From contig CM055265.1 in the NCBI GenBank assembly GCA_029237695.1, positions 68,235,903 through 68,299,902 on the forward strand: a stretch of 64,000 nucleotides of DNA, read 5' to 3'. The notes under the pieces were generated by a model, which saw only the letters and a list, made by a program, of their open reading frames with translations, had not been told where the DNA came from and did not search any database. Origin of the DNA: Conchocele bisecta. Its lineage: Eukaryota; Mollusca; Bivalvia; Lucinida; Thyasiridae. Within the stretch, counting starts at the first letter, position 1, and each line of letters opens with the position of its first letter. Shown here one piece after another: positions 420 to 32,694 of this stretch. The translations under genes were made by a program, and so were the position numbers.

Positions 420-1672
420 GGAAGTTCACAATTTCCCAATTACCTGCTCTCGTAGCAAATGCGTGAAGTCAATGTTGAAGTCACACGCGCAGTGCCAAGT
501 GCACATGCGAGGAAAGTAGCTGGTACTAGAACAATTTCCAATCTAAACATGTATATAGGTTAATTTGGTTAATTAGTTAGCCAATTTTCTTAATAAATGT
601 ATTGTTCAAGGAGGTTTTTTCAAGCAATTGTCTATAAGCAGTGCTCGAAGTAGGACTCAGTAATATGAGAATATATGCTCCAATCATGTTATTTTATTTT
701 TATTCGATACTCATACATCAAACCTAGGTATGGATACCAAAATTCACCATTCTATGTCAAATTACAAAATTATGAGGCGTAAATAAGCAAAAAAAGCTTG
801 AAATGGGCAGCCAACTTGGATTTGGTGGCTATTTTTCGAATTATTTATCTGAGTGCTTTGACATTCGAAAACCAAAATTGTTCTATAAACCTTCACCTTT
901 CAATTGGTACAGAAAACGAAACTTTTGCATCAATTTGAAATGTCTGAGTGCCCCGGCACCCCACACTATTAGCAAATGCGAATTTCCTCCGCTTTTCCTC
1001 TGAATAGTCCGTAAACTTTCGAATAATTTCCGGAAAATATCGTAAGTTAATAGTTATGAGATAATCGCACCTTTTCATACTAGTTATGAACAATGTTTAA
1101 GTCCCCTTGCCAAGTCAGCCTATAGGTGGCAGTCCACACACTGTTATGCAATTGAGGTTTTCGGGGCCTGCGACCGCAGCCGAAACGTAAATTTGTGAAT
1201 ATGTTCAATTCACAACAATTCACAAAATACGTTTTGCGCATACACACTGGCCTAACTGATAGGTAACAAGAGCTATATTGACACAAACAGCCAACTCAGT
1301 CATAATGCACCTGGCAGTCAGCACTCTTCACTGTTTACACAAAATGGGCCAAAATCGCATCTATATGGACGCGGGCCAACCTATAACAACACAATCTTGG
1401 ATTTCAAATATCCCGTGCGGACTTTGCACTAATACTTGCTTAATTGTAACCACTTCTGCAATCACACCTTGTCACACTGATCAGCCTGATCCATAGTCAG
1501 CACGGTACCGACCGTTTTCTTGTCGAGCTACATACCTACATTTCTGACAGAATGGCTGCAAATTAGTTCAGACGACAATTCCGAGCAACAGTTTTCACCA
1601 CACCTGACCCTCTGGCTTGCAACTGAAATCATGCCAGAGTGACATACAAATAAGCACAATGATATATTGTTT
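420..1672. other. AT-rich DNA without recognisable genes
   Basis: Only short open frames without protein-like composition occur on either strand. I see no RNA gene or clear repeat. The stretch ends where the Polinton-like palindrome begins. Confidence 0.6.
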
Positions 1673-2049
1673 AGTATTTATAGAGAGAGTCACTTCGTTA
1701 CCGTTTTGCATCCTGGACATTATAAGCAGAAAGGAATAAGACTAACGGTATATAAATATTGAAAAAAGATATGAATATAAATAAAATAGATCCCAACGGA
1801 ATTGTGAGAAAATTTAAATATTTTCTATAAAGATAATAAAATATTTCAATTATATAGACTAATATATAAAATGTTAGCTGAAAAGAGAAAATGAACAACA
1901 GTTTACAAAAACCCCTGCAATACCCCCACACACGATTTGTGGAGATTAGTCAGGGTGAAAATAAAATCACACAGCTCAGAAGGAGTATGACTGAAATGGG
2001 GATAGTATTTTTCACTCCGATAATATAAAGGGGACTTACCAACTAATTA

Positions 2050-5000
2050 ATGAAGAAAAAAATAACGAATATATGAAACGTTTTACGAGGGACATACAAA
2101 CGGGCGCTTTAAACGGGATAGAAAACAAATCTGAAGAAGATGTAAACAAATTCATTCAACGACTTGATGATTATGCTAAAAATGGAGTATAAAAAGTAGA
2201 AATATTAACTACAAAAAAAGTAGAAAAGAAGAGCACCTAAAACGAATTACTTAAGACTTAAAAAAAATAATACTCAGAAGGAGAAGAATATTTTAGAAGA
2301 CTACAAACACCACGAACAAAAGATAGAAAAAAAGGTCGCAGAACCACCACAATAACGCTGGGATAGAACGACTTCCAAAAAATAAAACAGAAGGGTGGAT
2401 AAAAGAGTTAGAACCTCAGCTGCACGGGAGTTTTTATCTCCGATACTCATTTTAATTACAACATTGCAACACATAGAGAAATGATTCAAAGGGAAACCAA
2501 CCCGAGAAAAGCTAAATTTTTTTCCACAAACTTTAAGAAGTCCCTGGTTTAGACGATATGATGAGGTTAAAAAATGTTATTCGCGCAAGAAGAAGAACGA
2601 TAAAATTAGATAAAACAAGCGTCGCATACAAAGTGACCTTTGTTAGATGGGGTAGTACATCTATAAAAATAATATATTCCACAAAAAAAAAAAGATTTAA
2701 AAGACAACGAAAAATGTAGCAGGAGAAAACTGCCGGAATGGTTGCGATACAAGAAGGGTATAAAACCGATAGATTACATTTGGCGAAGAACTCTGTTTAT
2801 CATGTGTTTAGCCCTACACTCACTAAACGATAAATTAACGCGTAATAGATCCATGAAATCCACACTGACTCACAAAGTTAAATATTTTAAATATTGTGAA
2901 AAAAAAAACCAGAGGTTCAAATTCATTCGAATATTTGAAAAAAGTAGAAAAGTGTTTTTTAAAATAGGAATAAGACGCGTACGAACCGACAGAAGATGGA
3001 ACATGGTTTTTAAGAAACTAGCAGCGCACTATGAAGAAATAGGAACAAAAAAAGATGACCAATAGGGGTATACAATGATCAACGCCATATCTAATACAGA
3101 TAATGGATATAAAGCCTGCCAAATTTACTGTTGTACACAGAATGTTATCAAAGATTTACAAACGCCGGTAACCTTCTACGACATTACAAACACCTGTATA
3201 AAGGAATAACGAAAATTATTTGCGAAGGAAAAAGAATAGATTAACCGATGTCCTCCTTTGAAAAAGCATTTTACCCAAAACCCAAAATGTAGTAGAAAAT
3301 CATACAATGGATAAATTCTTTTTACTGGTCCACACAAACTTCAATACTGCCGTTTTGATGACATGGAGGGGAACGATAGTAAGGAAAAATCCCGGTTGAT
3401 GATTTTGCGGAGAAACAAATACAATATACCAGTTCAACGGATGTTATTGGCACGGTTTGTCCTAACACTGTAGAGATAAGAGAGGGTTGAAAAAGACTAC
3501 GAAAAAACTTTAAAAGCCGGAACGAAAAACTCAGAAAGACGGTTTAATTTAAATGTTATTTGGGAACACGATTAAAAAGCACCAGAAGTCAAGGAGTTTC
3601 CCAAGCCGTCCCTCCTACTGTATTATCATATCATTGTATTCTTTTTGAGTCATATTTAGATAAAACCGGAGAAACCAATCCACATATAGATTTAGAGATT
3701 TTAAAACAACCCACGTTCCAACAGTGTGAGTAATGGCGATACACTTCAACAGAAGTAACTCACATAGTAAAAAGGATCCATCCAAATTTGGTTAATTTGT
3801 TTTATGAAGATTTAGAAAAAAGAGCGGTAAGAAAATGTGAAAAAAGTTGGTGAAAACCCTATATATGGATATCCGTCAGATTTTGAAAATCTTTTCATAC
3901 AAACAACAAAAAGAGGTTTACAAAGATGATCACCCAAGTTCCAGATCTCGGATTCAACTCAGCAAATACGATCTAAATTTAATAAAAAATCAATTGATTT
4001 TAAATAAATACAGATAAACCAAGAAAGTTTTAGTGGGTAAAAATCAAATCAACATTATTTATATTCAAGCCCAAGCTTCGCTTTCTTAGATGTAAAATTA
4101 TATCTTTCCCCAGTGTTTGATTACGCTAGATTGGTAGCGCATAAGGATGAAAAGACGAAAAATCTATCTTTCCATACGAATGGTTCGACACACCAGATCA
4201 ATTATCGTACGAGGGTTACCTGAATTTAAATCTCTGAGACCGAATAAACTTGCACCAACAAAAACCATCACTGAGAAGGAGCTAGAAGTATTGCAACGCC
4301 TAACAAAAAACGCGGAATGAAAACTTATAAAGATTGTTAAAAAATTTATAACACTTGGACGTAGGACGAGTTTCTAGAAGCGGCAAGAAAAATGGTCTCA
4401 TTTTAACGAAACAAAAGGTATAGACATGTTAAAAGATGCCGTTACACTTCCCGGTGTAGCTTTTTCAAATACATTCCATCGAGAACTATAAAAAACCTAC
4501 GTAACACCATATACGAATAACATAACTGACGGAGATCAGTCCACCGCCTGTATGCACCCAATGAAGAAATATACGAAATAATGAAACAATAAAGGCGCTC
4601 GTTGTGGACCATCAATTGTATATTCAAGATTAATGGCAGAGGTATTTCTAGAATTAATCACCCCAACGGATGGAAAAAAATGTGACTCTATATTAGGATT
4701 TGAACGCAAACGCCTTTGTATTTTAACCACACTTGCAAAAACAATTCCATTGGAGAGGGAATGGTTTATAAAATCAGAACAACCTCATTTTCGAACAAAA
4801 GAATTACAAATTTTACAAGACAGGTTTTAACGGATAAGTGGTTTTTGGGTTGCCGAAGTGGATATAATAGTTCCCCACAATTTAAAATAAAAGTTTTTTC
4901 TGAAATTCACCATAATCATAAATAGATTGTTGAGGAAAATGAAGTTCCCAACATATGTTAGATTATTTGAAAGAAACATGTCGCTAGTAGAGGAGATGGA

Positions 5001-5952
5001 AAGAAAACTGGTTGTGCAAGTCTGCTAAAAAAGTTTTATTATTTTAACCCCACTTTTAAAATGGTATTTAAATCATCGGATTGAAAATAATTGCCATTCA
5101 CACAATAATAAACTAACCTTCCCGGAAAACCATTTGAGTGGTTTGCAAAAGAAGTTACAGACGCAAGACGCACTGGCGATTTTGACCAGCTCCAAATCAG
5201 CAATTCAGATATTATGAAATTATAGGAAAATTCTGCTGTGGAAAAATGATAAAAACACCAAAACACATCCTAAATACAACATCTACAAAGACGAAAAAAT
5301 GTGTGTATGCGCCCTACGATCTGCGAATTTAACGATTTAGAAGAAATAGGGAATGCGTACGAATATCCTCTCAGCGTACAACCTCCTGATGAAGTCGTCC
5401 ATTCACTGTGGAATTGCAGTATATCAATATGCAAAATTAAGAATGTTACAATTATATTTAAGACTTTTTAGATACATACATTGATCGAGCGGATTTGAAC
5501 TGATTCAAATGTATACAGATAGTGTTATATATGGGTGTCAGTGGTCCCTCTGGATAACATAATAATTCCAGGAAATGCTCGAAGATATTAACGAACAAAA
5601 AAAAGATGGTTGGCATGGATAAATGGAGCAATAGAAGAGCCTGGACTTTTCAAACAAGAATATCAAGGTTGATCGCGCTATAGCCCTCAAGTCCAGTAAG
5701 TGCTATATTGTTCAAAAAAAGATAGCGAGAAGTCAAACATCTGCAAAAGGACTATTCTGCAAGACAAAATAAACTTACATGGGACAGATTCTACGCCGCA
5801 CTGAATCACGACGGAATAGATAGAGGTATAATTAGAGGAATCAGAATAAAAACGGGAACCATGAAACCTACACCCAGAAAAAATTAGGACATTCTGCATA
5901 TTACGATATAACGAAGAGTTTTACTGGATGGATACATACAGAACCTCTATAA
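2050..5952 (+). pseudogene. Protein-primed DNA polymerase B (pPolB), left-arm copy, decayed
   Basis: Fragments of a Polinton pPolB appear in order but in shifting frames. Around 2,735 is 'LPEWLRYKKGIKPIDY', matching the position of 'LPDWLRQKKGMYSVD' in the 31-kb element. The region near 3,065-3,130 corresponds to 'MTIG' and the Cys-rich segment, 3,250-3,300 to 'FEKAFYPKPKCSRKS', 3,930-3,990 to the exonuclease II area, and 5,895-5,952 to the extreme C-terminus ('YYDITKSFTGWIHTEPL' then TAA). Such enzymes replicate linear DNA from a terminal protein. With dozens of frameshifts no functional protein could be made from the sequence as shown. Confidence 0.75.
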
Positions 5953-6324
5953 ATAATTTTATCCAAAATTAAAATAAATTAAATTATTCTAATATGTGTT
6001 TCTTCTTCTCAACAATTGTTTCCTCTTCCTCCCAAAGTTTTCTCTTAGTTTATTTTTTTTTTTTTTTTATTACTAACGCGGATTGTTGTTCAGGTGTGAG
6101 ATATTTTAATCCAACTTAAAAACAGCTTCAATTTCCTTCACAAAGATCATAATATTGATTTGCATTATTCTTTTTGGTTCTTTGCAAACGCTTTACAATG
6201 CACCGACAATTTTTCCATTATTTTTAATTTTATATAACTTATTTTTCAACATAAAAAAAAAAGAATTTATAATAATTTTAGAAAAATAAATATAAATTAA
6301 CAAGAACAGGTATATAATAATACC

Positions 6325-6563
6325 TTCTTTTCTAGGTCTTTCCAACAGGATTTACATCAGAGGTTTTTTAGAATAATATTTCCCTCTTTTTCAAACTATC
6401 AACTCTATCTATAAAATGTTCATAATTTGTTACCGAATTACACATATTTTCCTTTGTCTTTTTACACAAATGTGATACTTTTTTCTAGTTTGTTGTGGCA
6501 GTAACAACAATCGCGCTAGAATAAAATTAACCAAATCATCATCAGTAAGTTTATCTTTGTCAT
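6325..6563 (-). pseudogene. Small Polinton protein 1, left-arm copy
   Basis: This is the reverse-complement counterpart of the 81-codon gene at 9,808-10,053. It is recognisable from the ATG complement at 6,561-6,563 through the 'LTDDDLV'-like start and the 'NPVG' region, with frame breaks. Function unknown. Confidence 0.5.
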
Positions 6564-7556
6564 ATTTTTAAATAAAATTATAATTAATATATACACGGTA
6601 GTTATTTGTTGTAACAGAAAACAAAAAATAACATTTAGTTAAAACATGATAGTTAACAACAGCAAGGTTTTTCAACCTATATGAAAAAGTGGTCCAGAAC
6701 CGCTATGCTATTTGGTAGTTAGAAACAAGTAACAGATTTTACACCAATAGAAAAGTGAACCAGAACCACCATGTTACTGGTAGTTGGAAAACCATCATAT
6801 TTATCACCAATATGAAAAGTGAGCCAGAACCGTCATGCTACTAATTTAAAAAAATTATATATCTTTATGTTATTATTATTTTAATTTTCTTTTAAATCTT
6901 TTAACTCATAAAAACTCTTTTGTTTCTTTTTATTTTTTTATTACTTTTTAATAATTTTATCTCCACCACCTAGACAGTTGTTTTTGCATTCGTTTATCCA
7001 CGAAATCGTTTCCAATCAGCGTTTTCCCACACACTTTATTAAGACTGCACTACATATTTTGTGACTATCAGTTTTGATATGACTCCGCAGATACCCTTCC
7101 ACGAGATAAAACAATTTCCCTCTATAATATTATTTAGATAAGTAGAACTATCCGGCATAATTTTTTTTATTATCAGTAATTTATATAAATTATAAATATG
7201 CTCAAAATGCTTAAAATAATTTCAATTAATTTAGAAAAAAATCATATCACCCCCAACCTAAATCAATACGTTCTTGAGCGTACGCTTTCATCAAATCCAG
7301 CATCTATATAATGTTAACCACCATCGTTATAATTTCCTTGAATACCAAACCATGCTCTTCTTCTTCTCTTCTAACTTCTTCAATGGAATATGTTTATCCT
7401 TAATAATGATTTATTAACTTGTTTTTTCTTAATTTTAATTAACTTGTTCTGATTTAATCTTTTCACTAGTGAACACACCTTGACATAGTTTATATAAGAA
7501 ATATAATAGATATATAATAGATATTCAAAACGAAAAATAGTTGATTAAAAATTAGA

Positions 7557-7900
7557 ATGGACAAAGTAATATTATGGGGAAATGGAGTTTTTAAAGGTTT
7601 TTGTTGCTAATATTTCTTATTTTAAAATGAAAAGAATTATTTAAAAAATAGTACATGAAATTATCCAGCGCAACCTATTACGTACTGATAAAAGAGTTTG
7701 CATTTTCAATATCTATAGAAAATTATCTAGGTGGTTATAAGAAACAACTTAAAGAAATTAAGGTATAAACAGAATTAATAAAGAAATTAGTTGAAAGAAA
7801 ATGCAGCAAATTTTATAAACTATTTCAAATAAAAGATTCATTTACCTGATATGGATTTCTATCAAGAAACGGAAAAATAGGTGAGTTATTTTTGAACCAA
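7557..7900 (+). pseudogene. 'EYMKY' family small protein, left-arm copy
   Basis: This is the mirror copy of the gene at 8,433-8,825, starting 'MDKVILWG'. It is strongly frame-broken but retains the region encoding the Arg/Lys-rich helix and the C-terminal segment. Confidence 0.45.
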
Positions 7901-7924
7901 ATTCCCAAGTATTGGTTAATCGTG

Positions 7925-8005
7925 TAATTGTTGAGCAATCTGAGTAAATATTTGAAGCAATTGTTGAGTAATTGCTGAGCAAGTGCTGAGGTAATTGTTG
8001 AGCAT
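7925..8005 (+). repeat. Degenerate 11-bp repeats (TTGTTGAGCAA type), left arm
   Basis: Consecutive units such as ATTGTTGAGCA, ATTGCTGAGCA and AGTGCTGAGGT follow each other at ~11-bp spacing. The mirror copy is at about 8,374-8,458. Similar units occur at 44,780-44,880. Confidence 0.55.
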
Positions 8006-8162
8006 TATTTACTAGTTGCCCACAATGAGCATTATTTTGCTCGTAATTTGTTAAAATGCCCAAAATACTACTCGAAATTTTCCATAATTCCCAAAGTATA
8101 AATAAAAAAATTAAAACCAACATTATTAAACAAATAAATCCCAAATAAAAAAAAAAATCCCC

Positions 8163-8223
8163 TGTTTGTACAAGTATATATAATCCAAACTACAGTGTAC
8201 ATATAGATAGTACATTTTTGTAT
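8163..8223. other. Central spacer of the palindrome
   Basis: About 61 bases separate the arms (TCCCC on the left, GGGGA on the right). The spacer is itself only weakly self-complementary and does not look like the commonly used long-read hairpin adapter. Confidence 0.7.
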
Positions 8224-8432
8224 GGGGATTTATTTTTTAAATTGGGATTTATTTGTTTAAATGTTGGTTTAAATTTTTTTATTATATAAACTTCTGGAAT
8301 TTAGAAAATTTCGAGTATTTTGGGCATTTTAAACAAATTACGAGCAAATAAGCTCATTTGCTGGGCAACTAGTAAATAATGCTCAACAATTACCCAGCCA
8401 TGCTCAGCAATTACGCAACAATTGCTCAATAA

Positions 8433-8825
8433 TTACTCAGCATTGCTCAAACAATTACCGATAACCAATACTTGGCATTGGTTCTCAAATAACTCACCTA
8501 TTTCTTTCCGTTTCTTGATAGAAATCCATATCAAGTAAATGAATCTTTTATTTGAAATAGTTTTATAAAAATTTGCTGCATTATCATCAACTAATTCTTT
8601 ATTAATTCTGTATAAACCTTGAATTTCTTTAAAGTTGTTTCTTAAAACACCTAGATAATTTTCTATAGAATATTGAAAATGCAACTCTTTTATCCGTACG
8701 TAATAGTTTTTGCGCTGAATATTTCATGTACTCTATTTTAAATAATTCTTTCATTTTAAAATAAGGAAATTATTCTCCACAAACCTTTTAAAAACCTCCA
8801 TTTCCCATAATATTACTTTGTCCAT
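8433..8825 (-). pseudogene. 'EYMKY' family small protein, right-arm copy
   Basis: Beginning 'MDKVILWEMEVFKRFVENN', then after a frame change 'FKIEYMKYSAQKLLRTDKRV' and 'AFSIFYRKLS', and then in the next frame 'FKEIQGLYRINKELV'. The middle part aligns with 'IEYMKYQRNLLRSDKNVAF' and 'TILYRQLCELYKRQ' in the gene at 53,769-54,129 of the 31-kb Polinton. The product would be ~120 residues, helical and basic. Function unknown; conservation in two distinct elements marks it as a genuine Polinton gene. Confidence 0.6.
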
Positions 8826-8892
8826 TCTAATTATTAATCAACTATTTTACGTTTTGAATATCATTATAATCTATTATATACTATTATAACTA

Positions 8893-9125
8893 ATGTCAAA
8901 GGTGTGTTCACTAGTGAAAAAGATAACTCCAGAAACAAGTTAATAAAATTAAGAAAAAACAGAGTTTAAGAAAATCATTATTAAGGATAAACATATTCCA
9001 ATAAAGAAGTTAGAAGAAGAAAAGAATAGCATGGTTGTAATTCAAGGAAATTATAACGATGTATGTTTCAACAATATATAGATGCTGGATTTGAAGAAGC
9101 GTACGCTCAAGAACGTATCATTTAG
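8893..9125 (+). pseudogene. Small Polinton protein 3, right-arm copy
   Basis: It starts with ATG 'MSKVCSLVKKITPETS', then stops and frameshifts, then 'KDKHIPIKKLEEEKNSMVV' and ends 'QYIDAGFEEAYAQERII' before TAG. The mirror copy is at about 7,255-7,490 (minus). The short, charged product has no family I recognise. Confidence 0.4.
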
Positions 9126-9807
9126 GTTGGGGTGAAAATGATTTTTTCTAAATTAATTGAAATTATTTTAAGGCAATTTGAGCATATTATAAATTTATTA
9201 TAAATTACTTATAATAAACAAAATAAGCCGAAGTCATACTTATCTAATAAAATATAGAGGGAAATTGTTTTATCTCGTGTAAGGGTATCTGCGGATCATA
9301 TCAAAAAGAAGTAAAAAATAGAATGTGCACGTCTTATAAGTTTGTGGGAAAACGCTGATTTGGAAACGATTTCGTGGATAACGAAAGCAAAACAACTGTC
9401 TAGGGGTGGAGAAAAAATAATAAAAAGTAATAAAAAACATAAAAAGAACAAAAATAATAAATGATTAAAATATTTAAAAGAAATTAAAAATAAAATAACA
9501 ATAAAAGAATATATAATATATTTAAATTATTACATGACGTTCTGGCTCACTTTTCATATTGGTGATAAATCTGTAGTGTTTTCAACCAACCAGTAACATG
9601 GTGGTTTTTCGGCTCACTTTTCCATATTGGTGTACAAATCTTACTGTTTCAACTACCAATAGCATAAGGACGGTTCTGGACCACTTTTTCATATAGTTAG
9701 TAAAAACCTTGCTGTTGTTAACTATCATGTTTTAACAAAATGTATTTTATGTTTTCTGTTAAACAAAAACTACACGTGTATAATGAATTATAATTTTATT
9801 TCAAATT

Positions 9808-10053
9808 ATGACAAAGACTAAACTTACTGATGATGATTTGGGTTAAATATTATCTAGCGCGATAGTTGGTTTACTGCACAACAAACTAGAAGAAGTATCT
9901 ACATTTTGTGTAAAAAGACAAAAGGAAATTGAATACGGTAACAAATATGAAACATTTTATAGATAAGAGTTGAAGATTGAAAAAAGAGTAAATAATATTC
10001 TAAAAAACCCTGATGTAAATCCAGTTGGAAGACCTAGAAAGAAGGTAATTTAA
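9808..10053 (+). pseudogene. Small Polinton protein 1, right-arm copy
   Basis: A single frame of 81 codons runs from ATG 'MTKTKLTDDDLG' to a TAA at 10,051-10,053, broken by two internal TAA codons. The C-terminus 'NPVGRPRKKVI' is basic and resembles an AT-hook ('GRP' flanked by basic residues), suggesting DNA binding. This is inference only. It reads opposite to pPolB and lies just beyond its 3' end. That the frame survives with a protein-like composition argues it was once a gene. Confidence 0.5.
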
Positions 10054-10164
10054 TACCTGTTAAACTTGTTTAATTTAAATTTATTTTTCTAAAAAATATT
10101 ATAAATTTTCTTTTTTTTTATGTTGAAAAATAAGTTATATAAATTAAAATAATGGAAAAATGAC

Positions 10165-10290
10165 GTGCAATGTTAAGCGTTTGCAAGAACAAAAGAATAA
10201 TGCAAATCAATATTATGATCTTTGTGAGGAAATTGAAGCTGTTTTTAAGTTGATTAAAAAATCACACACCAGACAACAAATCCGATGTTA
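10165..10290 (+). pseudogene. Small Polinton protein 2 (charged helix), right-arm copy
   Basis: An open stretch encodes 'CNVKRLQEQKNNANQYYDLC' then 'EEIEAVFKLIKKSHT', a charged, probably helical peptide ended by TAA. The mirror copy lies near 6,120-6,240 on the minus strand. Start and end are uncertain because of frame breaks, and the function is unknown. Confidence 0.35.
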
Positions 10291-10391
10291 ATAAACTAAG
10301 AAATAAACTTAGGGTAGGAAGAGGCATCAAATGTTGAGGAAGAAACATATCAAGATATTTTTAATATTATATTAATTTTGATAAAATTATG

Positions 10392-13300
10392 TTATAGAGG
10401 ATCTGTATGTTATCCGCATCCAGTAAAACTCTTCGTTTTATCGATAATATCAGAAAGTCTAATATTTTCTGCGTGTATGTTTTTCATGGTTCCGTTTTTC
10501 AATCTGATCCTCTATTCATACCTCTATCTATCCGTCGTGATTCAGTGCGGCGTAGAATCTGTCCCCATGTAAGTTTATTTGTCTTGCAGAAAGTCCTTTT
10601 GCAGAAATGTTTGACTTCTTCGCTACTTTTTTCTGAACAATATAGCACTACTGATAGGGCTATAGCGCGATCACCTTGATAATACTATTTGAAAAGTCCA
10701 GGCTCTCTATTGCTCCATTATCCAGCCAAACCATTTCTTTATTATTCGTTTAAAATCTTCGAGCATTTCCGGTATTATTATGTTATCAGAGGACCACTGC
10801 CACCCATATATAAACTGTCATCTGTAGCCATTTGAATCAGTTCAAAATCCGCTCGATCAATGTATTTTATCTTAAAAAGTCATAATAAAATTGTCACATC
10901 TTTAATTTTGCATATTGATATACAGCAATTCCACATTGAATGGACGATTCATCAGGGAGGATTTGTACGCCTGAGGATAAATCGTACGCATCTCCAGTTT
11001 CTTCTAAATCGTTTAAAATACGCGATCGTAAGTGCCCATCCACACAATTTTCGTCTTTTGTATATTTGTATTTAGATGTGTTTCTGGTGATTCTATCAAT
11101 TTTCCACAGCAAGTAATTTCCTACTAATTTCATAATATCTGCAATTGCTGATTTGGACGGTCAACATCGCCAGTTCGTCCTTGCGTCTGTAACTTCTTTT
11201 GCAAACCCACTCAAATGGTTTCGGGAAGGTAGTTTATTATTGTGTGAATGGCAATTATTTTCAATCCATGATTTAAATACCATTTTAAAAGTGGGGTAAA
11301 TAATATAACTTTTTAGCATACATTGCACCAACCAGTTTCTTCCATCTCCTCTACAGCGACCTGTTTCTTTCAAATAATCTAAACATATGTTGGGGAACTT
11401 CATTTTCCTCAACAATCCAAATTAAGAATAATGGTGACATTTCAGAAAACTTTATCTTTTAAATTGTGGGGAACTATTATATACACTTCGGCAAACCCAA
11501 ATCCAATGATCCTTTTACAACTGGCTTGTAAAATTTGTAATTCTTTTGTTCGAAAATGGTGTTCAGATTTATAACACTTCCCTCTCCACATGGCATTGTT
11601 TTGCAATTGTGGAAAAATACAAAGCGTTTGCGTCAAATCCTAAATATAGAGTCCACATTTTTTCCATTCCGTCTGGGTTGATCTAATTCTAGAAATACCC
11701 TCCCTGCCATTAACTTGAAAATACAATTGAAGGGTCCACCTCGAGCGCTTGTTTCATATTTCGTATATTTCTTTCATTTGGGTGCATACAGCGTGGACAG
11801 ATCTCGTCCGTTATGTTATTCGTATAAGGTGTTACCGTAGTTTTTTATAGTTCCTCGAAAATGTATTGAAAAGCTACACCGGGAAGTGTAACGGCATCTT
11901 TAAACATGTCTATACCTTTTGTATTCGTAAAATTGAGACATTTTTCTTGCCGCTTCTAAAAAACGGTCCCCCCTACGCCCAAGTCGTTTATAATATTTTA
12001 ACCAATCTTTAAAAGTTTCATTCCGCGTTTTTTTATAGGCGTTTGCAATCTTCTAAGCTCCTTCTCAGTGATGGTTTTTTGGTGCAAGTTTATTCGTCCC
12101 AGAATTAAATTCAGAGGTAAAACCCTCGACATAATTTATCTGGTGTGTCCGAACCAATTCGTATGGAAAGAAAGATTTTTTCGTCTTTACATCCATATGC
12201 TCATAACCCATCCAGCGAAAATCAACACCAGGGGAAAGATATAATTTTACATCTAAAGCGAAGCTTGGCATGAATATAAATAATGTTTGATTTTATTTTT
12301 TACCCCACTAAAACTTTCTTTTTTTATCTCTAAAATTTTCAACCATTTGATTTTTATTAAATTTAGATCGTATTTGCTTGAGTTGAATCCGAGAACCGGA
12401 ACTTGGGTTGATCCAATCTTGTACCTCTTTTTGTTGTTTGTATGAAAGAGTTTCAAATCTGACGATATCCATATATAGGGTTTTCACCAACTTTTTCACC
12501 ATTTCTACCGCTCTTTTTTTCTAAATCATCATAAAATCAAATTAACCAATTTGGATGGATCTTTTCACAATGTGTTTTAATTCTGTTAGAAAGTGTATCG
12601 TCCAATAACACACTGATTGGGGAACTGGGTGTTTAAAATCTCTAAATCATATATGTGGATATGGTTTTCTCCGGTTTTATCTAATAAGACTCAAAATCGA
12701 ATACTATCTGATATGGGATAATAACATAGCGGCTTGGGAAACTCCTTGACTTCTGGTGGCTTTATAATCGGTCCCAAATAACATTTAAATTAAACCGCTT
12801 TCTGAGTTTTCGTCGGCTTTTAAAGTTTTTTCGTATTTCTTTTTCAACCCTCTCTTTATCTCTACAGTGTTTAGGACAACAGCCGTGCAAATAACATCCG
12901 TGAAACTGGTATATTGTATTTGTTTCTCCGCACAATCCATTCAACCGGGATTTTTTCCAACTACGTCGTTTCCCCTCCATGTCCCACAAACGGCAGTATG
13001 AATGTGTGGACCAGTAAAGATTTATCCATTGTATTGATTTTCTACTACATTTTGGTTTTTGGGTAAATGCTTTTTCAAAGGCGGACATCGGTCTATCTAT
13101 ATTTTTATCCTTCGCAAATAATTTTCGTAATTCCTTTACTACCGGTGTTTTGTATGTCGTAGAAGGTACAGGCTTTTGTAAATCTTTGATCACATTCTGT
13201 ACAACAGTAAATATGTCAGGCTTATATCCATATCTGTAATAAGAAATGACGTGATCATTGTATACCCCTATTGTCATCTTTTTTTGTTCCTATTTCTTCA

Positions 13301-14300
13301 TAGTGCGCTGCTACGATTTTCTTAAAAACCATGTTTTTCCATCTTCTGTCGGTTCGCCTACGCTCTAATCCTATTTTAAAACACTTTTCTACTTTTTTCA
13401 AATCTCGAATGTATTGAACCCTCTGGTTTATTTTTTTTCCACAAATATTTAAATAATTTAACTTTGTGATTCCTACAGTGTGCTTTTCATGGATCTATCT
13501 ACGCGTAATATCGTTAGAGTGTAGGCTAAACACCTGAATATACAGAGTTCGTCGCCAAATTATCTAACGGTTTTATACCCTTCGTGTATCGCAACTTCGC
13601 AGTTTTCCTCTGCTACAAGTTTTCGTTTGTCATTTCAACATCTTTTTATTTTTGTGGAATTATATTATTTTATAATAGATTTACTACCCCATCTACAAAG
13701 GTCCACTTTGTAATTCGGACCTTTAAAATTTATCTACATTTAATCGTTCTTCTTCTTGCGCGAATAACCAATTTTTACCTCATCATATCGTCTAAACAGG
13801 GACTTCCTTGAAAAGAATTGTGAAAAAATTAGCTTTCTCGGTTTCCCTTTGAATCATTTTCCTCTATGTGTTTGCAATGTGTAATTAATATGTGTATCGA
13901 GATAAAAAACTCCCGTGCAGCAGAGGTTCTAACTCTTTTTATCCACCCGTCTGTATAATTTTTTTGAATCGTCTACCAGCGATATTGTGGTGGTTCTGCG
14001 ACCCCTTTTTCTATTTTATTTCGTGGTGTTAGTATCTTCCTAAAATAATCTCTCCTTCGAGTAATTATTTATTTTTGAAGTAATTCGGTTTTAGGTGCTC
14101 TCTTTTCTACTTATTTTGTAGTAATATTTCTACTTTTATACACATTTTAGCCTCATCATCAAGTCGTTGAATTAATTTGTTTACATCTTCTCAGAATTTG
14201 TTTTCTATCCCGTTTTTAAAAGCGCCCCGTTTGTATGCCCTCGAAAAACGTTTTCATAAATTCGTTATTTTTTTTCTTCATTAATTAGTCTGGTAATCCC
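10392..14300 (-). pseudogene. pPolB, right-arm copy, decayed
   Basis: This mirrors the left-arm copy. The longest open part (13,277 to 12,762) starts 'MTIGVYNDHVISYY' and includes 'RPMSAFEKAFTQKPKCSRK', then 'TIYQFHGCYLHGCCPKHC', which aligns with 'TVFQFHGCYWHGCPTHC' in the 31-kb element. Around 12,360-12,410 is 'VPVLGFNSSKYDLNL', the exonuclease II motif with its aspartate intact. At 11,065-10,895 comes the segment between polymerase motifs B and C, and the gene ends at the TAA at 10,392-10,394. Multiple frameshifts separate these pieces. Confidence 0.8.
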
Positions 14301-14652
14301 CATTCTCTTAATCGTAGTGAAAAATACATATCCCTATTTCAGTCAACTCCTTTCTGCCTGTGTGATTTTTATTTTCACCCAGACTATCTCCACAAATCAG
14401 TGTGTGGGGTTATTGCAAGGGTTTTTAGTAAACTGTTGACATTTTTCTCTTTCAGCTAACATTTTATATATTTAGTATATATAATTGAAATATTTTTTTA
14501 TCTTTAATAGAAATATTAATTTGTCTCACAATCCGTTGGATCTATTTTATTATATTCATAACTTTCAAATATTTAATACCGTTAGTCTTATCCTTTTCGC
14601 ATATAATGTCCCATGCAAAACGGTAACGAAGTGACTGCTCTCCTATACTACT

Positions 14653-15505
14653 GTTATTGCATAAACTGTTTTATGCAGTGGAAAACACCATATGATGTTG
14701 GCTAATTAATTGTAGAACATTTCTATGAGCCACAGACATGTGTTTTTATATGTTATCTCCCTTGAGATAGAATATTATGTCAAGCAAATTTCTATGGGGG
14801 CAGTCATATTGCTGTTCTACGCATAAATGGCGAGTACAACCAAGACAATAGTACCATGTGCCAACTTATCATATGGCGTTTCGGTCTGTCTTGCTTTGTA
14901 TCTAAAACTCTACATGTACTATTCTCCATAGTTTTCACAGTTTTGGGCTCAGTTTATCAGTTAAATTCTGGAAAATACGAAGCAAGACATTTCGTGCGTT
15001 TGAATACATTAGCTAGCATCTTTAATTCTCATAGTTAGGTAGTGTGACCAGTTAGCCGCCAGTTTCGTACAATTTTTTCTGGAAGTTTCAAACAGTAATT
15101 TATTCTAAAGTAAACATATGGATGGGAATAGGTTTGCACCCTCACCTCACAGTACATTTGCCTCTGGATTATTATTCATAGAATATGCAACTTTCAGTCT
15201 CTAATTCCGAAAGTGATTAGTTTTTGTGGAGATAACATATTTCAGTACTTTCAGTACTTTGATTTATATATTTACTAAAATGCCACCATAACGAGCATTC
15301 AGACGGCCGAGTAGTCGGAGTAACTTCCCCTATTCGGGTGTCGCTAGTGGCAATTCATATTTTCTGCCTTCCAGTTCATTTCCGGGCTAATAAGGTTTTT
15401 TCGTTTATTTGAGTAATTTCAGTGGTTTCACGACAGGATGTCGTTTGTGTATGGAGTACTTCTTGTTATAGAGACAGATAACCCGCATCAGATATGCAAA
15501 ACTGT
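14653..15505. other. No gene recognised
   Basis: AT-rich sequence following the palindrome. Short open frames only, none protein-like; no clear repeat seen. Confidence 0.55.
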
Positions 15506-23775: not shown

Positions 23776-23882
23776 AGTAGTATATAAGAGTCAAAATGAT
23801 ACCACCCCCCTCTAGAAGGCACCGGCTACGTGCGGTGCCTCCCACCGCATGGTGGTATCATTGTTGACTCTTATATACTACT
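23776..23882. other. Self-complementary tip of the left TIR (107 nt)
   Basis: The outermost bases AGTAGTATATAAGAGTCAA pair with TTGACTCTTATATACTACT at the inner edge; ATGATACCACC pairs with GGTGGTATCAT, and a small inner stem AGGCACCG/CGGTGCCT surrounds GCTACGTG. The single strand could therefore fold into a branched hairpin, reminiscent in shape of parvovirus ends. The right TIR has the same architecture. Confidence 0.8.
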
Positions 23883-24017
23883 TGGATTTTCCCCACTGTT
23901 CGGCGGGTATGTATGAGAACATATTTTTCATCAACCGCGAGACCATATATTTCCTAGAGCAAACAAAAAAAATAACACCCTATTAAAGATAAAAATCTAT
24001 TGGTTATACTCAGTATA
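23776..24017 (+). repeat. Left terminal inverted repeat of the Polinton
   Basis: It matches the reverse complement of 54,563-54,797, from AGTAGTATATAAGA to TTATACTCAGTATA, with scattered changes. It includes CCCACTGTTCGGCGGGTATG and ACACCCTATTA blocks kept in both copies. The pPolB start codon follows immediately at 24,018. Confidence 0.95.
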
Positions 24018-27000
24018 ATGTCTACCATAAAGCAAATGAGAGAGCAAGCTAAGAGTTGGGGAATTTGCCTAAGAGGTTTGATACTCAAGAAAGATATAGC
24101 AGATAGGATAAGTGACGCGCGAGCCGTCGTCTACGAGGAGAGGCTGCGACGTGCGGTTTCGACCGGAAGACTGCCCGCCGACCCCAAAAAACGCTCCGAG
24201 AAATTGGAGAACGAGACGACGGCCAGTCTGCGTGCCACTGCTTACGCGCAGCGTGTAAAAGAAGATCCCAGCGCACGTAGAAAACCACTATACAAGGCGT
24301 ACTACATTAAGATTTATCAAGGGTTGGTGGGGAGACCTCCTAAAAGTAGGAGAGATATCGCCAGAGCTTTGGTGGAGGAGGGTCCCAGGATTCTCGCAGA
24401 AGAAGCCGAAGTTAGGGAAACTGTTGATAGGGGTAGGAGGAAGATAGTATGGACTTTCGAGAGGGGGGTAGATGGGGAGATCGCTAATCGCATAATGAAT
24501 CGAATTCGCCCAGAGATGACCACGGCATGTTATCTGAGGTATTCGTGCTCTTATCGTATTAGGAACATCGAGACCGACGAAACGATGATCTATCACAAAC
24601 AATCAAAGGGCAGTCCGTGGATAAACGAGATTTCCAAAGCGGAGAGTTGGATATCCGATAGAGAGAAAGGTCGAAGGGACATCGACAAAGTTGATAGACC
24701 AAACACAAAATGGACCTTCGTTCGTTGGATATCGGTCGAGGTGAAGATGATCATCGACGCTCAACAACTTCTCATGGGAACGGGAAAACTCCCAGACTGG
24801 TTAAGACAGAAAAAGGGAATGTATTCCGTCGACACGTACGACGACTACTTATGTCTGTTTAGGTGCATAGCCATCCACCGTGGAGGGAGACCAGACCGCT
24901 GTTGTGAGAAGGCACGAACTCTAGCTCACGAATATCTCGGTCACGATAACGGACCGGATAGTAAGGGAATTCCCCTGAAAGATATTAAGAAGGTCGAAGA
25001 GCACTTCAAGATGGGCATTCGCGTTTACGAGCCCACCGACGAAGGATAAGGTTCCGGCAAACTACGACGCGGTCGGAGAGAAGATCATGACGATAGGAAT
25101 GTTTGGAGGTCACTCTTTTCTCATAACGAACCTTCGCAAGATGACGAACGAGTACGGGTGCACCGGATGTCAACAACGGTTCACAAAGTCGTGTAACATG
25201 CACAGGCACGCTACCACCTGCATGGGTGGGAAGACCGTGGTGACATGTCCAGGTAAGAGGGTAGAGAGACCACAGTCGGCTTTCGAGAAGGCGTTCTATC
25301 CCAAGGGGTCAGTGAGCGAGAGGTCGATTCAATGGTTGAATAGAGAAGAAGAGAAGGTGGGAAAGCACATACATCACGCGACATGTGGTCACGGTGGAGA
25401 GAGGTGGGTGGCCGGCGATCCGGTCGACGGTTATTGTCACGAGACCGAGACCGTGTTTCAGTTTCACGGATGTTACTGGCACGGGTGTCCGACGCATTGC
25501 AGGAGAGGTCACGCGAGATCGCTGTACAGGCGGGCGAAAATCCAAGACGCCAAGATAAGGGATGAGGGTTACGAGCTGGTGGTGATGTAGGAGTGCGAGT
25601 GGTTGAATGAGGTGAATACCTACTATCCACAATCGCCGCGCGAGGAGGAGACGACTCTGTACCCATCACCAATATTAGTATTACGGACATCGTAGGCGGT
25701 TATATCGACAAGTCAACAACCACTCAACCCACCAAAGACCTGACCTTCGAGGTCGAGCACGTTCCTATATCGGTGTCGTTGGGGGATACGATGGATGAAG
25801 GGATCACATACATATGCGAACGAGATCCCGACACGCTAGTCGAGAAGTTCGTGACCGAGCTGCAGATGAGAGGCAAGGCAATCAGGGAGGGGGTTAGGAA
25901 GAAGTATCTGCTGGCCGACATAGATATGCTATCGAAGTCTCAGCAAGCAAAGATTATCTCTTGGATTGACCAAGTCCCGGTGGTGGGGTTCAACTGTAGC
26001 AGGTACAACCTGAACCTCATCAAGCAGTACTTTGTAGAGAAGTTGGCGGCCACCGTGAATAAGGTGATAGTCGGAAAGAGAGCCAGCACGACGATGTTTC
26101 TGTTTACCCCGGAGTTTAGATTTCTCGACATCATCCAGTATCTGGGACCCGGTACCACGTACGACCGGTGGGTTAAGGCGTACGACTGTAAAACGATAAA
26201 GTCTCACTTCCCGTACGAGTGGTTCGATAGCGCGGACAAGCTCGACCATCCGGGGCTGCCAGACTATCCCGAGTGGTACTCGAAGTTAGAAGGGTGAGTT
26301 CCTACTGTCGTTGTCCGAGTGGAAAGAGTGTAAGAAGGTATTCCAAGAAAATGGGATGAAGACGTTCAAGGAATGGTTGCAACACTACAACGACTTGGAT
26401 GTCGGACCGTTCCTGGAGGCTCTGACTAAGATGACGGAGTTCTACAGAGGAAGAGGTGTGGATATACTCAAGGATGCTGTGTCTCTGCCCGGTGTTTCCC
26501 TTCAGTACCTACTCCGCGGGTCGATCGATGGGAAGGCGGACACGCCCGAGCTGTGGTCGCCGAAGTCTGAAACTTATGAGATAATGAAGCAGGGATTGGT
26601 CGGTGGTCCGTCCATAGTGTTCTCCAGATACGCAGAGGCTGGCAGGTCGACGATCAGGGGTCAGGTAGGTAGTCGGGAGGAGAAGATGTGCAAGGCGGTG
26701 ATAGGGTACGACGCCAATGCGCTGTATCTGTCTACCCTGTCGAAAGACATGCCGTGCGGGGAGGAGACGATATGGACGTGTGACGATCCGGAAAGACAGT
26801 CGTATGTAGACTGTTTCGTGAGGAAGGTCAGGAGTGAAAAGTGGTTCGGATTTGCGGAGTTGGATATAGAGGTCCCGGAAACGTTGAGAGACAAGTTCTC
26901 GGAAATGTCACCGCTGTTTGTTAATCGAGAAGTCGATGAGAACGAGGTTCCGCAGCACATGAAGGACTACCTGGCCGGGACCGGGAGGAAAAGGGTCGAA

Positions 27001-27863
27001 GGACAGAGAAAGCTCGTGGGGGCAATGTCCGCCAAGAAGATGATCATATACTCCCCACTGCTAAAGTGGTATCTGGAGCACAGTCTGATCGTCAAGGCGG
27101 TGCATAGGGTGATAGACTACACGCCAGGCAAACCGTTTCAATGGTTCGTGGAAGAGGTCACCGCTGCCAGACGGACGGGGGACGTAGACAAGAGCAAGGC
27201 GGTGTTGGCCGAGATATTCAAACTGGTTGGCAACGCGTGTTGTGGCAAGCTGATAGAGGTACAAGAGAGACACATGAACACCACATATACGAAGGATGAG
27301 AAAACTGTCGACCGGTCGGCGTGGTTCGAAGACCTGGAGGAGATTGGGGAGGCTTACGAGATATCGAGCAGGAAGACTCGAGTGGTGATCAACAGACCGT
27401 TTCAGTGTGGCATAGCGGTCTACCAGTTGGCCAAGCTCCGGATGCTGGAGTTCCACTACGACTTCTTGGACAAGTACGTGGATCGCGGAGATTTCGAACT
27501 TATACAGATGGACACTGACAGTATGTACTTCGCGGTGTCTGAGAAGACGCTGGCGGAGGTGGTGAGAAAGAAGATGAAGAGAAAGTTCAATAAGGAGAAG
27601 ACCGAGTGGTTGGCGTGGGACGCGTGGAGCAACAGAACTCCGGGATTGTTCAAGCTGGAATTCGAGGGAGATAGAGCCATCGCTCTGTGTAGCAACTGTT
27701 ACTAAGTGAGTGGTGACGGAAAATCTAAGCACTCGGCCAAGGGGATGTCAAAGAGATCTAACGATCTGACTTGGGGAAGATACAAGAGTGCTCTCGAAGG
27801 GGGTAGGGGTATGGCGGAGAACAGGGGATACCGAATGGTTAACGGGGTGATGAAGACGTACAG
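24018..27863 (+). pseudogene. Protein-primed DNA polymerase B (pPolB), main part
   Basis: I chose the ATG at 24,018, directly after the TIR ('MSTIKQMREQAKSWG'). The N-terminal region contains 'YDDYLCLFRCIAIHRGG' (~24,840-24,890). A Cys/His segment 'CTGCQQRFTKSCNMHRH' (~25,160-25,210) and 'VFQFHGCYWHGCPTHC' (~25,455-25,500) follow. Then comes the exonuclease region: exo II reads 'VVGFNCSRYNLNL' with Asn where the palindrome copy has Asp. Exo III is near 'HYNDLDVGPF' (~26,380). Polymerase motif A 'YDANALYLS' is at ~26,707-26,733, motif B 'LVGNACCGKL' at ~27,220-27,250, motif C 'DTDSMY' at 27,511-27,528. Lesions: frameshift near 25,048, TAG at 25,588, frameshift near 25,660, frameshift near 26,290, TAA at 27,703, and the 13.6-kb insertion after 27,863. 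It would have replicated the element from a terminal protein. Confidence 0.92.
27858..27863 (+). repeat. Target-site duplication GTACAG, left copy
   Basis: GTACAG lies at the last pPolB-like codons and recurs at 41,474-41,479 where pPolB-like coding resumes. Bases outside the six differ, as expected for a staggered-cut duplication. Confidence 0.75.
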
Positions 27864-27889
27864 TCGTTTCTGTCAAAATGTTCCGGGTT

Positions 27890-28350
27890 TATACGTGTAC
27901 AAAGTGTTTTGCGTTGCGTATCCGTGGAGTTTCCGTTAGTTGCGTTTCAAACCGTGTGTCGTCTACGTGTAATACATTTTCGGCCATGCGTTACGTTTCC
28001 CCACTATTGGGCATGCGCGAAAGTCGAACAAACCGTGTTCAACGCATTGAGTTTCAAAAGCGTGTAATCCGTGTACAACGGTTGTAAAGTTTAACGCATA
28101 CAACGGTTGTAAACAACGCATTGAGTTTCAAAAGCGTGTAATCCGTGTACAACGGTTGTAAACGTATACAACGGTTGTAAACGTATACAACGCTAAGGTA
28201 AATCGTTTAAACGATTTAACGCTTTATTTGACGATCGGTTACTCGCTTCTACATGTACACAGCACCGTACAGATGAAACCGTGTTATACGTATAACACGT
28301 TTCCACGTGTTTTAACGCATTACACGTTTTGGTATGCCAACCGTGCATCG
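27890..28350. repeat. Left subterminal array of the insertion
   Basis: A 44-bp stretch with AGTTTCAAAAGCGTGTAATC and CGTGTACAACGGTTGTAAA occurs twice ~74 bp apart (28,043 and 28,118), surrounded by shorter copies of GTATACAACG and GTTGTAAACG. The array is rich in CpG compared with its surroundings. Related units occur inverted at the other end. Confidence 0.7.
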
Positions 28351-28755
28351 CGTAGAATGCGCATGCACAGATCGTTCTTCGTGTGTGTATATATACTTCT
28401 AGACTCAGCAGGGCTTCTAAAATGTTCAGTTTTCCGGTTCTGGACCGATTTTTGAACTCTCAGACCGATTGAGATTTGAAAACTAGTCTTAAAAATCGGT
28501 CCGAGAAAAATTGCCAGTCGGCTGCTATTTCGCTATAAACCTTGTAAACTGATCGGTTTTGACCACCAAGTAATTTATGACACATATCCGCGGGCCATAT
28601 CCTTTTTAAACCAGTGTGCAGCGCGCTGTGTATTTAGTTTCTCTCAAATATCGATATTTCTTAACACACGCGTGGGACAGGTGTATAGCGGATTAGTGAC
28701 AGAAATAGACTGGCTTCAGCGTAAAGATACGAGAGTTCCTAGACTCGCCATTTCT

Positions 28756-28906
28756 GAGGTCTATAAATACATAAAATATGCTAAAAGCATCAATGAATGA
28801 AGAAAACAATGATTTTTTATATGGAGGGTGTAAAATAAAAAAAAATATTATTTTTTTCTTCATTCATTGAAGCTTTTAGGCATATTTAATGTATTTTTTG
28901 ACCTCG
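28756..28906. mobile_element. Small hairpin MITE
   Basis: AAATATGCTAAAAGCATCAA with TGAATGAAGAAAA at 28,770-28,806 pairs with an inverted copy at 28,857-28,905 (TTCATTCATTGAAGCTTTT and onward). Arms are ~48 bp; the middle is AT-rich. Confidence 0.6.
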
Positions 28907-28924
28907 GTCCGTTACTTCAACCTG

Positions 28925-29745
28925 TGATACACTCCCGCCTGCGATTCGCTTACCAAGAATTGCAATCCAGCGGTCCTTGAATTGCAATTCTTCCCCTCTG
29001 GAATTGCAGTCTAATTGCAGTCTAATTGCGGTCCAAACGCGGTCCCGTTTTTGCGGTCATTCTTTCGCGATACCGTTTGTGCGGTCATTCTTTCGCGGTC
29101 CAGTTTGTGCGGTCATTCTTTCGCGATACCGTTTGTGCGGTCATTCTTTCGCTATTTCCGGTAAAAACTTACCGTATCATCGTACAGTACAGTTTGTTTA
29201 CATTATCAGTGATTATACAAACGTACTATACGAATATTATACAAACATACGATATCCGTTCGTATATACGATATATCCGTACGGATATTGTATGAATATA
29301 AAGTGGGTCATCCTGTAGTTAAAATATACCGATGCACCGGTTCATTTCGAATGTAAACATCCGGTTTTCATTTCGATCATCTGCCATAATTTGAAGTTTT
29401 TCAAAATGAATAAATGTTCAGTTTTACGATACAGAAACAATATTTAAAACTGAGGATTGTGAAGTACGGTATCACTGTACATATACATGTGTGTTCAATA
29501 TACAGTAATTCATCACTGTACTCCGCACCACCGCCGGGGACACAAAACAATGATCCCCCACGCACACCAGCCATCTACATTTGGCGTCCTAAAAGTTCCG
29601 GTCTATATCCCACAGTGGGAACAATGTGTATCACCACCACCACCAGTTTTTGTCTATGACTACACTACACACCCCCCCCCCCCACCGCCCCCGACCACCA
29701 TTCTGTGTAAGCGGTGAGTGGCCGAGACTTCTGTCTGTAACGCAG
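28925..29745 (+). repeat. Cassette copy 1 (full length) preceding the minisatellite
   Basis: It starts CACTCCCGCCTGCGATTC and contains repeats of TGCGGTCATTCTTTCGC (four near copies), a palindromic TACGAT/ATCGTA-rich segment, and a C-rich tract at 29,670-29,690. It recurs nearly whole at 31,108-31,865 and partly at 32,487 and 33,179. Open frames through it are accidental; the two main copies share them only because they are duplicates. Confidence 0.8.
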
Positions 29746-32486: not shown

Positions 32487-32694
32487 TACACTCCCGCCTG
32501 CGATTCATAAGTAATTCATCATTGTACTCCGCACCACCGCGGGGGACACAAAACAATGATCCCCCACACACACCAGCCATCTACATTTGGCATCCTAAAA
32601 GTTCCGGTCTATATCACCACCACCAGTTTGTGTCTATGCCTACACTACACCCCCCCACCGACCACCACTTCTGTCTGTAACGCAGGATGACGTG
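32487..32694 (+). repeat. Cassette copy 3 (internally deleted)
   Basis: Begins CACTCCCGCCTGCGATTCAT and jumps directly to the 3' part of the cassette (AATTCATCATTGTACTCCGC), so the middle ~550 bp is missing. Confidence 0.85.

Follow-up and report, generated by a model that had tools for sequence, protein, structure and literature searches.

The 13-kb palindrome at positions 1673-14652 of the window (the whole 64,000-nucleotide stretch of Conchocele bisecta DNA analysed here), composed of two arms and a 61-nt spacer, belongs to a palindromic family that is a young mobile element related to Polintons, with dozens of copies in this large genome. We consider it likely that this family originated by fold-back and has since multiplied as palindromes through hairpin replication and integration in trans.

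After blastn comparison of the 64-kb window against itself, a sole inverted pair was detected, 1679-14647, with 85.6% identity over 13,511 columns, and because of its length this palindrome is not a product of chance. The left arm (1673..8162, forward strand) extends between the AGTA..ATAG terminus and the spacer, and the right arm (8224..14652, reverse strand) is the left arm inverted, with the same terminus at its end. The spacer or loop between them (8163..8223) is 61 nt long and unpaired, and carries on either side AAATCCCC (8155-8162) and GGGGATTT (8224-8231). The mirror symmetry ends on both sides at the AGTA..ATAG..GTCACTTCGTTACC terminus, and the flanks beyond are unlike each other. 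Using the sequence from the other Polinton of the window as a tblastn query, we identified homology to the protein-primed DNA polymerase (pPolB) in frame-shifted pieces at 2399..5706 on the forward strand in the left arm (arm positions 727-4034) and at 10655..13837 on the reverse strand in the right arm (arm positions 816-3998), directed inward in both. Two small genes were also located by tblastn, s2 (6305..6531) and s3 (6965..7118) on the reverse strand of the left arm, and s3 (9204..9413, 81% identity) and s2 (9763..10050, 56% identity) on the forward strand of the right arm. The s2 product may be HTH-like, its Pfam matches being weak and below the cut-off, and no Pfam match passed the cut-off for the 10 broken ORFs scanned in the window copy. 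Given the self-blastn pair, the termini at both ends and the inward pPolB in both arms, the palindrome with identical polymerase ends described in the original prediction is real.

Under one scoring, alignment of the two arms of the window copy gave 334 mismatches, of which 56 are transitions, and 479 gap openings, mostly (403) of 1 nt. By this first scoring the ratio of mismatches to gaps was 0.70, whereas the six control pairs from the window that were informative gave 2.3-9 (two tandem ones yielded trivial alignments); by a second scoring it was 0.49 and the controls gave 1.06-5.8. Each arm is about 9.4% off a cleaner copy, counting insertions, deletions and mismatches; another copy is 1.5-2.3% off. 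Read along the contig, the substitutions in the two arms were T>A 55 and 51 times, A>T 12 and 12 times and G>T 22 and 18 times, and G was lost 44 and 39 times, with T as the most frequently lost base in the right arm; the insertions were less biased towards particular bases, with counts per arm of A 87/61, T 76/74, C 29/26 and G 18/19. Since gap openings exceed substitutions and the same main substitution errors recur in both arms along the contig, the arm difference of about 15% appears to be mostly sequencing error, and one uncorrected read may run through both arms. An age estimate from the raw 85% identity was dropped, as most differences resemble read errors.

The palindrome interrupts a dispersed repeat, which is broken at the left flank (1460..1672, forward strand) and continues at the right flank (14653..14762, forward strand), as located by matches to the joined flanks. 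From 1276 candidates 40 matches were scored, 2 of which were the window locus itself, and 38 of the 38 at other loci cross the join with 77-80% identity; at the join the joined flanks of the window copy are 5 nt longer than in all 6 relatives retrieved. These matches bear on the possibility of an assembly or library artefact, in which a fold-back read was built into the contig. Palindromes made up 0.5% of unamplified PacBio reads in one study, according to an excerpt of its text (PMC6218980), the left arm and the window copy as a whole resemble uncorrected-read sequence, and a 26.3-kb locus in the same genome, which mirrors its flanks too, looks artefactual. In the window copy, however, the symmetry stops at the termini, the unlike flanks adjoin in all 38 scored matches elsewhere, and the 10 other loci retrieved were all palindromic, 9 with target duplications, so that an artefact is extremely improbable. 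The existence of a single arm, which would have spoken against the original prediction, is disfavoured, as the same structure stands at many loci, 9 of 10 with target duplications, and the relatives of the interrupted repeat show that the flanks belong together. The 26.3-kb pair (at C1:210980602) was rejected as a full-length parent: pPolB lies at both ends and the mirroring, which shows 53 mismatches and 101 gaps over 2.7 kb, reaches about 300 nt into the flank, so that an assembly fold-back is its probable origin.

A search for exact family termini gave 85 in the genome and 0 in the control, and these formed 35 inward pairs and 15 single termini. The size of 31 pairs was 12.6-13.9 kb and none was longer, below the 15-20 kb of Polinton genomes given in the excerpted text of PMC4642659. 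All 10 pairs retrieved whole were palindromes with two identical ends, 9 of them with arms 97.4-99.1% alike, and the tenth being a hybrid, the main piece of which is 95% alike between arms. The view of the palindrome as a single fossil is thereby refuted. A perfect 5-bp target duplication was found in 9 of the 10, the exception being the hybrid, and for this reason the copies look young. The 61-nt loop is common, with few differences, to all 8 long copies examined. A 35-mer of pPolB, allowing up to 3 mismatches, gave 68 matches, which formed 27 inward pairs, 25 of them with arms that share an allele, a degree of pairing reached in 0 of 100,000 shuffles; of the 35 terminus pairs, 25 showed the 35-mer in both arms, 8 in a single arm and 2 in neither.

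Neither the 35 terminus pairs nor the 35-mer matches revealed a parent of the same sequence that is not palindromic; the 15 single termini, 9 of which have no nearby 35-mer match and 3 of which show one arm only, may include non-palindromic family members. These single termini, together with the existence of a related non-palindromic family, would be in line with formation of the palindrome afresh at each insertion of a monomer, for instance as head-to-head dimers. Against this stand the identical loop in all 8 long copies examined and the lack of any terminus pair demonstrated to be monomeric, as the 8.55-kb pair is another palindrome, and we regard such repeated formation as very unlikely. 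The 7.7-kb loci L019/L020 were considered as an independent snap-back and rejected, since part of the family loop and the inner arm end are kept; because this part of the loop adjoins unequal deletions of both arms, they are deletion products of the long form. In L038 and L039, which are also palindromes, a deletion next to the loop affects one side only.

In order to compare arms within and between loci, the nine copies with target duplications were used. For all 18 arms the closest relative was the sister arm, the divergence being 0-0.29% within a copy and 0.96% (median) between copies. The pPolB variants mirrored in both arms were 50 synonymous and 34 nonsynonymous with 0 stops, while those present in one arm were 12 synonymous and 31 nonsynonymous with 2 stops (Fisher P 4e-4 for mirrored versus one-arm variants; P 6e-15 for the mirrored set versus neutral). 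Before filtering, the count was 216 in both arms and 101 in one arm, 43 of the 101 being in L019 with a misaligned tail. The one-arm variants look neutral or erroneous. Because sister arms are nearest to each other and the mirrored variants are mostly synonymous and without stops, the arms were homogenised while pPolB was under selection, and pPolB is, as judged from these variants, under purifying selection. The reading frames are blurred by residual indels in the copies examined, and from the substitutions only we infer a polymerase that would be working. One pPolB piece of a cleaner copy matched PF03175 at 1.1e-7 in Pfam, and the family pPolB has 1736 protein homologues; no match of the pPolB piece was found in viral contigs.

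The arms of mammalian Y chromosome palindromes are kept alike by gene conversion. Chromosomal gene conversion after insertion, instead of hairpin replication, would also give nearest sister arms and mirrored variants. Under that process, however, neutral changes would be mirrored as well, whereas the mirrored set is strongly synonymous without stops and the one-arm set is not; furthermore, the copies appear to be young, 9 of 10 having perfect target duplications, and the family end sequence at both ends of a related palindrome (L037) suggests a swap before insertion. We thus consider gene conversion to be an unlikely source of the likeness. The arms are probably identical because of replication through a giant hairpin.

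In line with the original prediction, integrase, ATPase and capsid genes were not seen: no integrase (rve), capsid or packaging ATPase match was found in the 8 Pfam-scanned ORFs of 30 listed for a cleaner arm, and within the 35 family pairs lay 0 of 115 scored integrase matches (16,029 candidates). Three of the 115 were inside listed pairs of Polinton termini that span 16.6-16.9 kb. Integrase-bearing Polintons are abundant in this genome and one is in the window, at 23776..54797 on the forward strand, with termini AGTAGTATA and with rve (4.5e-7, just below the Pfam cut-off), Capsid_N (2.6e-5) and a weak ATPase homology, Pox_A32 (0.0028). This separate Polinton, the ends of which have only AGTAGTATA in common with those of the palindrome family, represents a possible type of helper. 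For the small gene L009:5665-5988, no homologue was found among 9 candidates.

Two kinds of relatives were identified. L037 is a different palindrome with another gene and loop, but with the family end sequence, 95-97% alike, at both ends, which suggests that an end swap reached both arms prior to insertion. It contains an 879-aa gene and, of pPolB, only the start. The 879-aa ORF is open along its length in several diverged copies, and nothing similar was found in Pfam, the protein database (7997 candidates scored), viral contigs or PDB sequences. The second kind are single-pPolB elements (termini AGTAGTATATAGGGAGTCAC..), which resemble the family in the first 30 nt of the terminus (93% alike), in pPolB (about 70% at DNA level) and in 5-bp target duplications (3 of 3), but differ in being non-palindromic, with inverted ends of 1.3-1.5 kb and one pPolB in the three examined. 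No integrase match was detected among their 6 scanned ORFs, and because this related non-palindromic family lacks integrase in the scanned ORFs, loss of the integrase, ATPase and capsid genes may have preceded the fold-back.

The original prediction proposed an integrated counterpart of snap-back genomes. The integrated palindrome, with its identical polymerase ends, is as expected of folded-back linear protein-primed DNA, and to this extent the proposal holds; the idea of a one-off by-product of a complete Polinton is not sustained, in view of a multiplying family with a common loop in 8 of 8, mirrored variants and selected pPolB. Chance integration of a single defective genome, produced by snap-back from a complete Polinton, would account for identical ends, a short-stemmed loop and the lack of any integrase or capsid gene seen; it is nevertheless highly improbable with dozens of loci, different target duplications, one loop and diversification under pPolB selection, and with nearest non-palindromic relatives that are small and gave no integrase match among scanned ORFs. 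Hairpin replication is a better fit than a dead defective genome because the arms are homogenised and pPolB is under selection, and we infer that the first palindrome arose by snap-back. In this scheme a small element of the Polinton lineage, replicating by protein priming, would have undergone a single fold-back at a short inverted repeat; the resulting 13-kb palindrome, with identical ends and a pPolB gene in each half, would then have multiplied as a mobile family. In each cycle pPolB would prime at the ends, the displaced strand would form a hairpin of about 6.4 kb with the 61-nt loop, and arm mismatches would disappear either through repair of the hairpin or because one arm serves as template for self-primed synthesis of the other. 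Complete Polintons would then provide, in trans, the integrase that inserts the linear duplex. The selection on pPolB suggests that the element supplies its own polymerase, and the lack of integrase suggests that it needs help for insertion.

Most Polintons encode capsid proteins and a packaging ATPase, and their target duplication is 6 bp. The family shares with Polintons/Mavericks a pPolB of the same family (PF03175), inverted AGTAGTATA ends, dispersed insertions and short target duplications, but it is wholly palindromic, is 13 kb in size, has no integrase, ATPase or capsid seen, and shows target duplications of 5 bp, found in 9 of 10 copies and missing from one. Palindromic snap-back defective genomes are known in adenovirus. 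A retrovirus-like integrase is a universal Polinton signature in the excerpted text of PMC4642659, and snap-back defective genomes of AAV are described in an excerpt of PMC8235507. The likeness to these adenovirus and AAV genomes lies in identical ends joined via a short loop with other genes gone; the palindrome family, however, is inherited, mobile, present at dozens of loci and equipped with a selected polymerase gene. Bidnaviridae, in the excerpted text of PMC4061559, likewise have a Polinton-type pPolB in a compact replicon and two DNA components with alike ends, but these are linear ssDNA viruses with capsid genes, and the putative second component of the palindromes has the orphan 879-aa gene. 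A doubtful but possible reading is a palindromic protein-primed lineage alternating between integrated duplex and giant single-strand hairpin, with at least two complementary components, perhaps one with pPolB and the other with the orphan 879-aa protein, and with interchangeable ends, which would form a new class of genetically palindromic satellites dependent on the integrase and perhaps the virions of complete Polintons in the same genome.

In the accessible parts of the open-licence literature on Polintons, snapback, transposon palindromes and bivalves, a palindromic Polinton family was not found, which is not proof of absence. Replication of Polintons as linear DNA with terminal-protein priming has largely been deduced from the polymerase. 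Integrated palindromes with mirrored, selected variants are genomic evidence for a stage where the arms meet, and the replication mode of Polintons becomes testable in living tissue. Fold-back genomes are usually dead ends; this family would show that one can become a lasting and multiplying lineage.

The palindrome at 1673-14652 stands with its two polymerase ends, as in the original prediction: comparison of the window with itself by blastn gave an inverted pair at 1679-14647 (85.6% identity) with arms of about 6.4 kb each and a 61-nt spacer between them, both ends start with AGTA..ATAG..GTCACTTCGTTACC, the sequences beyond these ends are unlike, and inward-reading pieces of pPolB, the protein-primed DNA polymerase, were detected in both arms by tblastn. 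Immediately to the right lies a separate imperfect inverted repeat (15510-16474; 86%, arms of about 400 nt), and the reverse-transcriptase-like ORFs at 19020-21289 (zf-RVT, 5e-8 on 20669-21289) are probably a LINE fragment. The window arms differ by 334 mismatches (56 transitions) and 479 gap openings (403 single-base), or by 268 and 549, respectively, under a second scoring; the ratio of mismatches per gap is 0.70, as against 2.3-9 in six informative control pairs from the same window (second scoring, 0.49 against 1.06-5.8). Each arm diverges by about 9.4% from a cleaner copy of the same family, as against 1.5-2.3% for another family copy. Relative to the cleaner copy and read along the contig, the two arms have 55 and 51 T>A changes (12 and 12 for A>T), 22 and 18 G>T changes, and 44 and 39 losses of G; the inserted bases show a weaker bias, and in the right arm the commonest loss is that of T. 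The same contig-wise substitution bias in oppositely oriented arms can hardly come from evolution of double-stranded DNA, and we read the window copy as one uncorrected read running through both arms, so that the true arm divergence would be near zero. On its own, this copy would raise the suspicion of an artefact.

The joined flanks of the window copy gave 40 scored matches (from 1276 candidates), two being its own locus, and all 38 matches at other loci span the join unbroken at 77-80% identity, as a dispersed repeat; the flanks thus belong together, and the palindrome was inserted between them. Relative to six fetched relatives, the joined flanks carry 5 additional nt at the join, which is consistent with a 5-bp target duplication obscured by read errors; the exact duplication is not readable in this copy, the left flank of which has further gaps too.

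A search of the whole genome (1.89 Gb, 1196 contigs) placed the palindrome in a family, and the reading as a lone defective genome was dropped. The outermost 1.3 kb of the arm gave 40 scored matches from 309 candidates, and all 10 of the +/- pairs fetched, retrieved in halves, were palindromes, nine with arms 97.4-99.1% alike and few mismatches. The locus L013/L014 (C11:11998792-12012016), with 95% in its main piece and arms from two subfamilies, is a hybrid, probably produced by recombination between two copies, and is the only one of the ten to lack a perfect 5-bp duplication at its flanks. Exact copies of the 29-nt terminus number 85 (reversed control, 0) and form 35 inward pairs and 15 single ends; the window copy is absent from this count because its ends carry errors. 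The pair length is 12.6-13.9 kb in 31 cases and 7.7-11.7 kb in four, and inspection of all four short pairs identified three family palindromes with loop-adjacent deletions (L019/L020, L038 and L039) and one different palindrome, L037. The three deletions start near the loop, as if the palindrome centre were a weak point. A 35-mer of pPolB (up to 3 mismatches) was found in both arms for 25 pairs and in a single arm for 8; the other 2, L037 among them, showed it in neither. Near the 15 single termini, examined within the search loci, it was found in both arms for 1, at the expected far-arm place for 2, in one arm for 3 and not at all for 9; truncated or non-palindromic members may be among these. 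The 26.3-kb inverted structure L029/L030 (C1:210980602-211006893), with its flanks mirrored too and many gaps, is probably an assembly fold-back, a caution for this class of repeat.

L037 is a palindrome of 8.55 kb (arms 99.2%, 52-nt loop, duplication ACTAT), of which both ends resemble the palindrome family for 468 nt (95-97%), and its interior carries a gene for 879 aa (L037 773-3412) and another small gene. For this orphan protein, no relative was found in Pfam, PDB or the protein database. For its gene, 52 of 1661 genomic candidates were scored and gave 60 matches; besides the two L037 arms, five are stop-free and nearly full-length at 73-93%, and many of the remainder are partial or stop-containing. 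At least seven inward pairs of this gene exist, including L037. One of them, L041, is a palindrome (99.3%) with neither a recognised terminus nor a duplication, and in another, L042/L043, examined at its ends only, these ends are inverted and of the window-Polinton type, and the duplication is AGTCA. Palindromes have thus moved within at least two kinds of element.

The complete Polinton in the window (23776-54797, 31 kb) has homologies to an integrase (rve, 4.5e-7), a capsid protein (Capsid_N, 2.6e-5) and, weakly, an A32-type ATPase (0.0028). Each of its termini starts as an imperfect palindrome, about 108 nt long, its flanks are AGGTA/GGGTA (4/5), and the 29-34 kb region is packed with tandem repeats. 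Its left terminus has 496 exact occurrences in the genome, and the 100 places listed include 22 inward pairs, 15 of them at 16.3-17.5 kb as against 31 kb in the window. Its integrase gave 115 scored matches (from 16,029 candidates), 29 of which are on contigs covered by the Polinton-pair list; three lie inside listed Polinton pairs and none inside palindrome pairs. The genome thus offers an integrase as a putative helper; by the integrase criterion, the palindrome is not itself a Polinton. The palindrome terminus with up to 3 mismatches marks 828 ends. A family ending in AGTAGTATATAGGGAGTCAC has 48 exact ends and 16 inward pairs of 1.7-26.3 kb; the three members examined are non-palindromic elements of about 8.6 kb, each with 5-bp duplications, inverted ends of 1.3-1.5 kb and one pPolB with about 70% DNA identity to that of the palindromes. 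The scan of six ORFs of these members gave no integrase hit, and therefore the lack of integrase may predate the fold-back. The small genes of both groups look HTH-like (Pfam weak, below cut-off). At C1, a window-Polinton-type terminus at 132824162 (+) faces a palindrome-family terminus at 132832576 (-) 8.4 kb apart, perhaps a mixed-end element.

Over the first 3.5 kb, the two arms differ by 0-0.29% within nine copies and by 1.53% within the hybrid, as against a median of 0.96% between copies (0.23-2.14, 180 comparisons), and the sister arm is the nearest neighbour for 18 of the 18 arms of the nine copies. The 35-mer allele is identical in both arms for 25 of 27 inward pairs (0 of 100,000 shuffles as high, maximum 18), subfamily structural differences are also mirrored between arms, and the loop is common to all eight long copies examined. 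Variants were counted in the nine copies after prior exclusion of columns adjoining gaps, the hybrid and the L019 tail, with frames taken from one copy. Those shared by both arms comprise 50 synonymous and 34 nonsynonymous changes and no stop, plus 15 outside the frames (53 transitions, 46 transversions), and depart from the neutral synonymous share of 20.4% (P 6e-15). Those in one arm comprise 12 synonymous, 31 nonsynonymous and 2 stop changes (9 transitions, 36 transversions), show no departure from this share (P 0.27) and look largely like residual assembly error; two variants fall in neither class. The two sets differ (Fisher P 4e-4). Unfiltered, the nine copies gave 216 both-arm and 101 one-arm variants; the misaligned L019 tail contributed 43 of the one-arm variants. 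By the simplest route, a displaced full-length strand would fold on itself, after which repair or self-primed copying would equalise the arms. The variant pattern implies that the arms were nearly equal when inserted and that changes enter both arms during replication, under selection on the polymerase; the window element is snap-back-like in how it works, and is by descent a product of the Polinton lineage.
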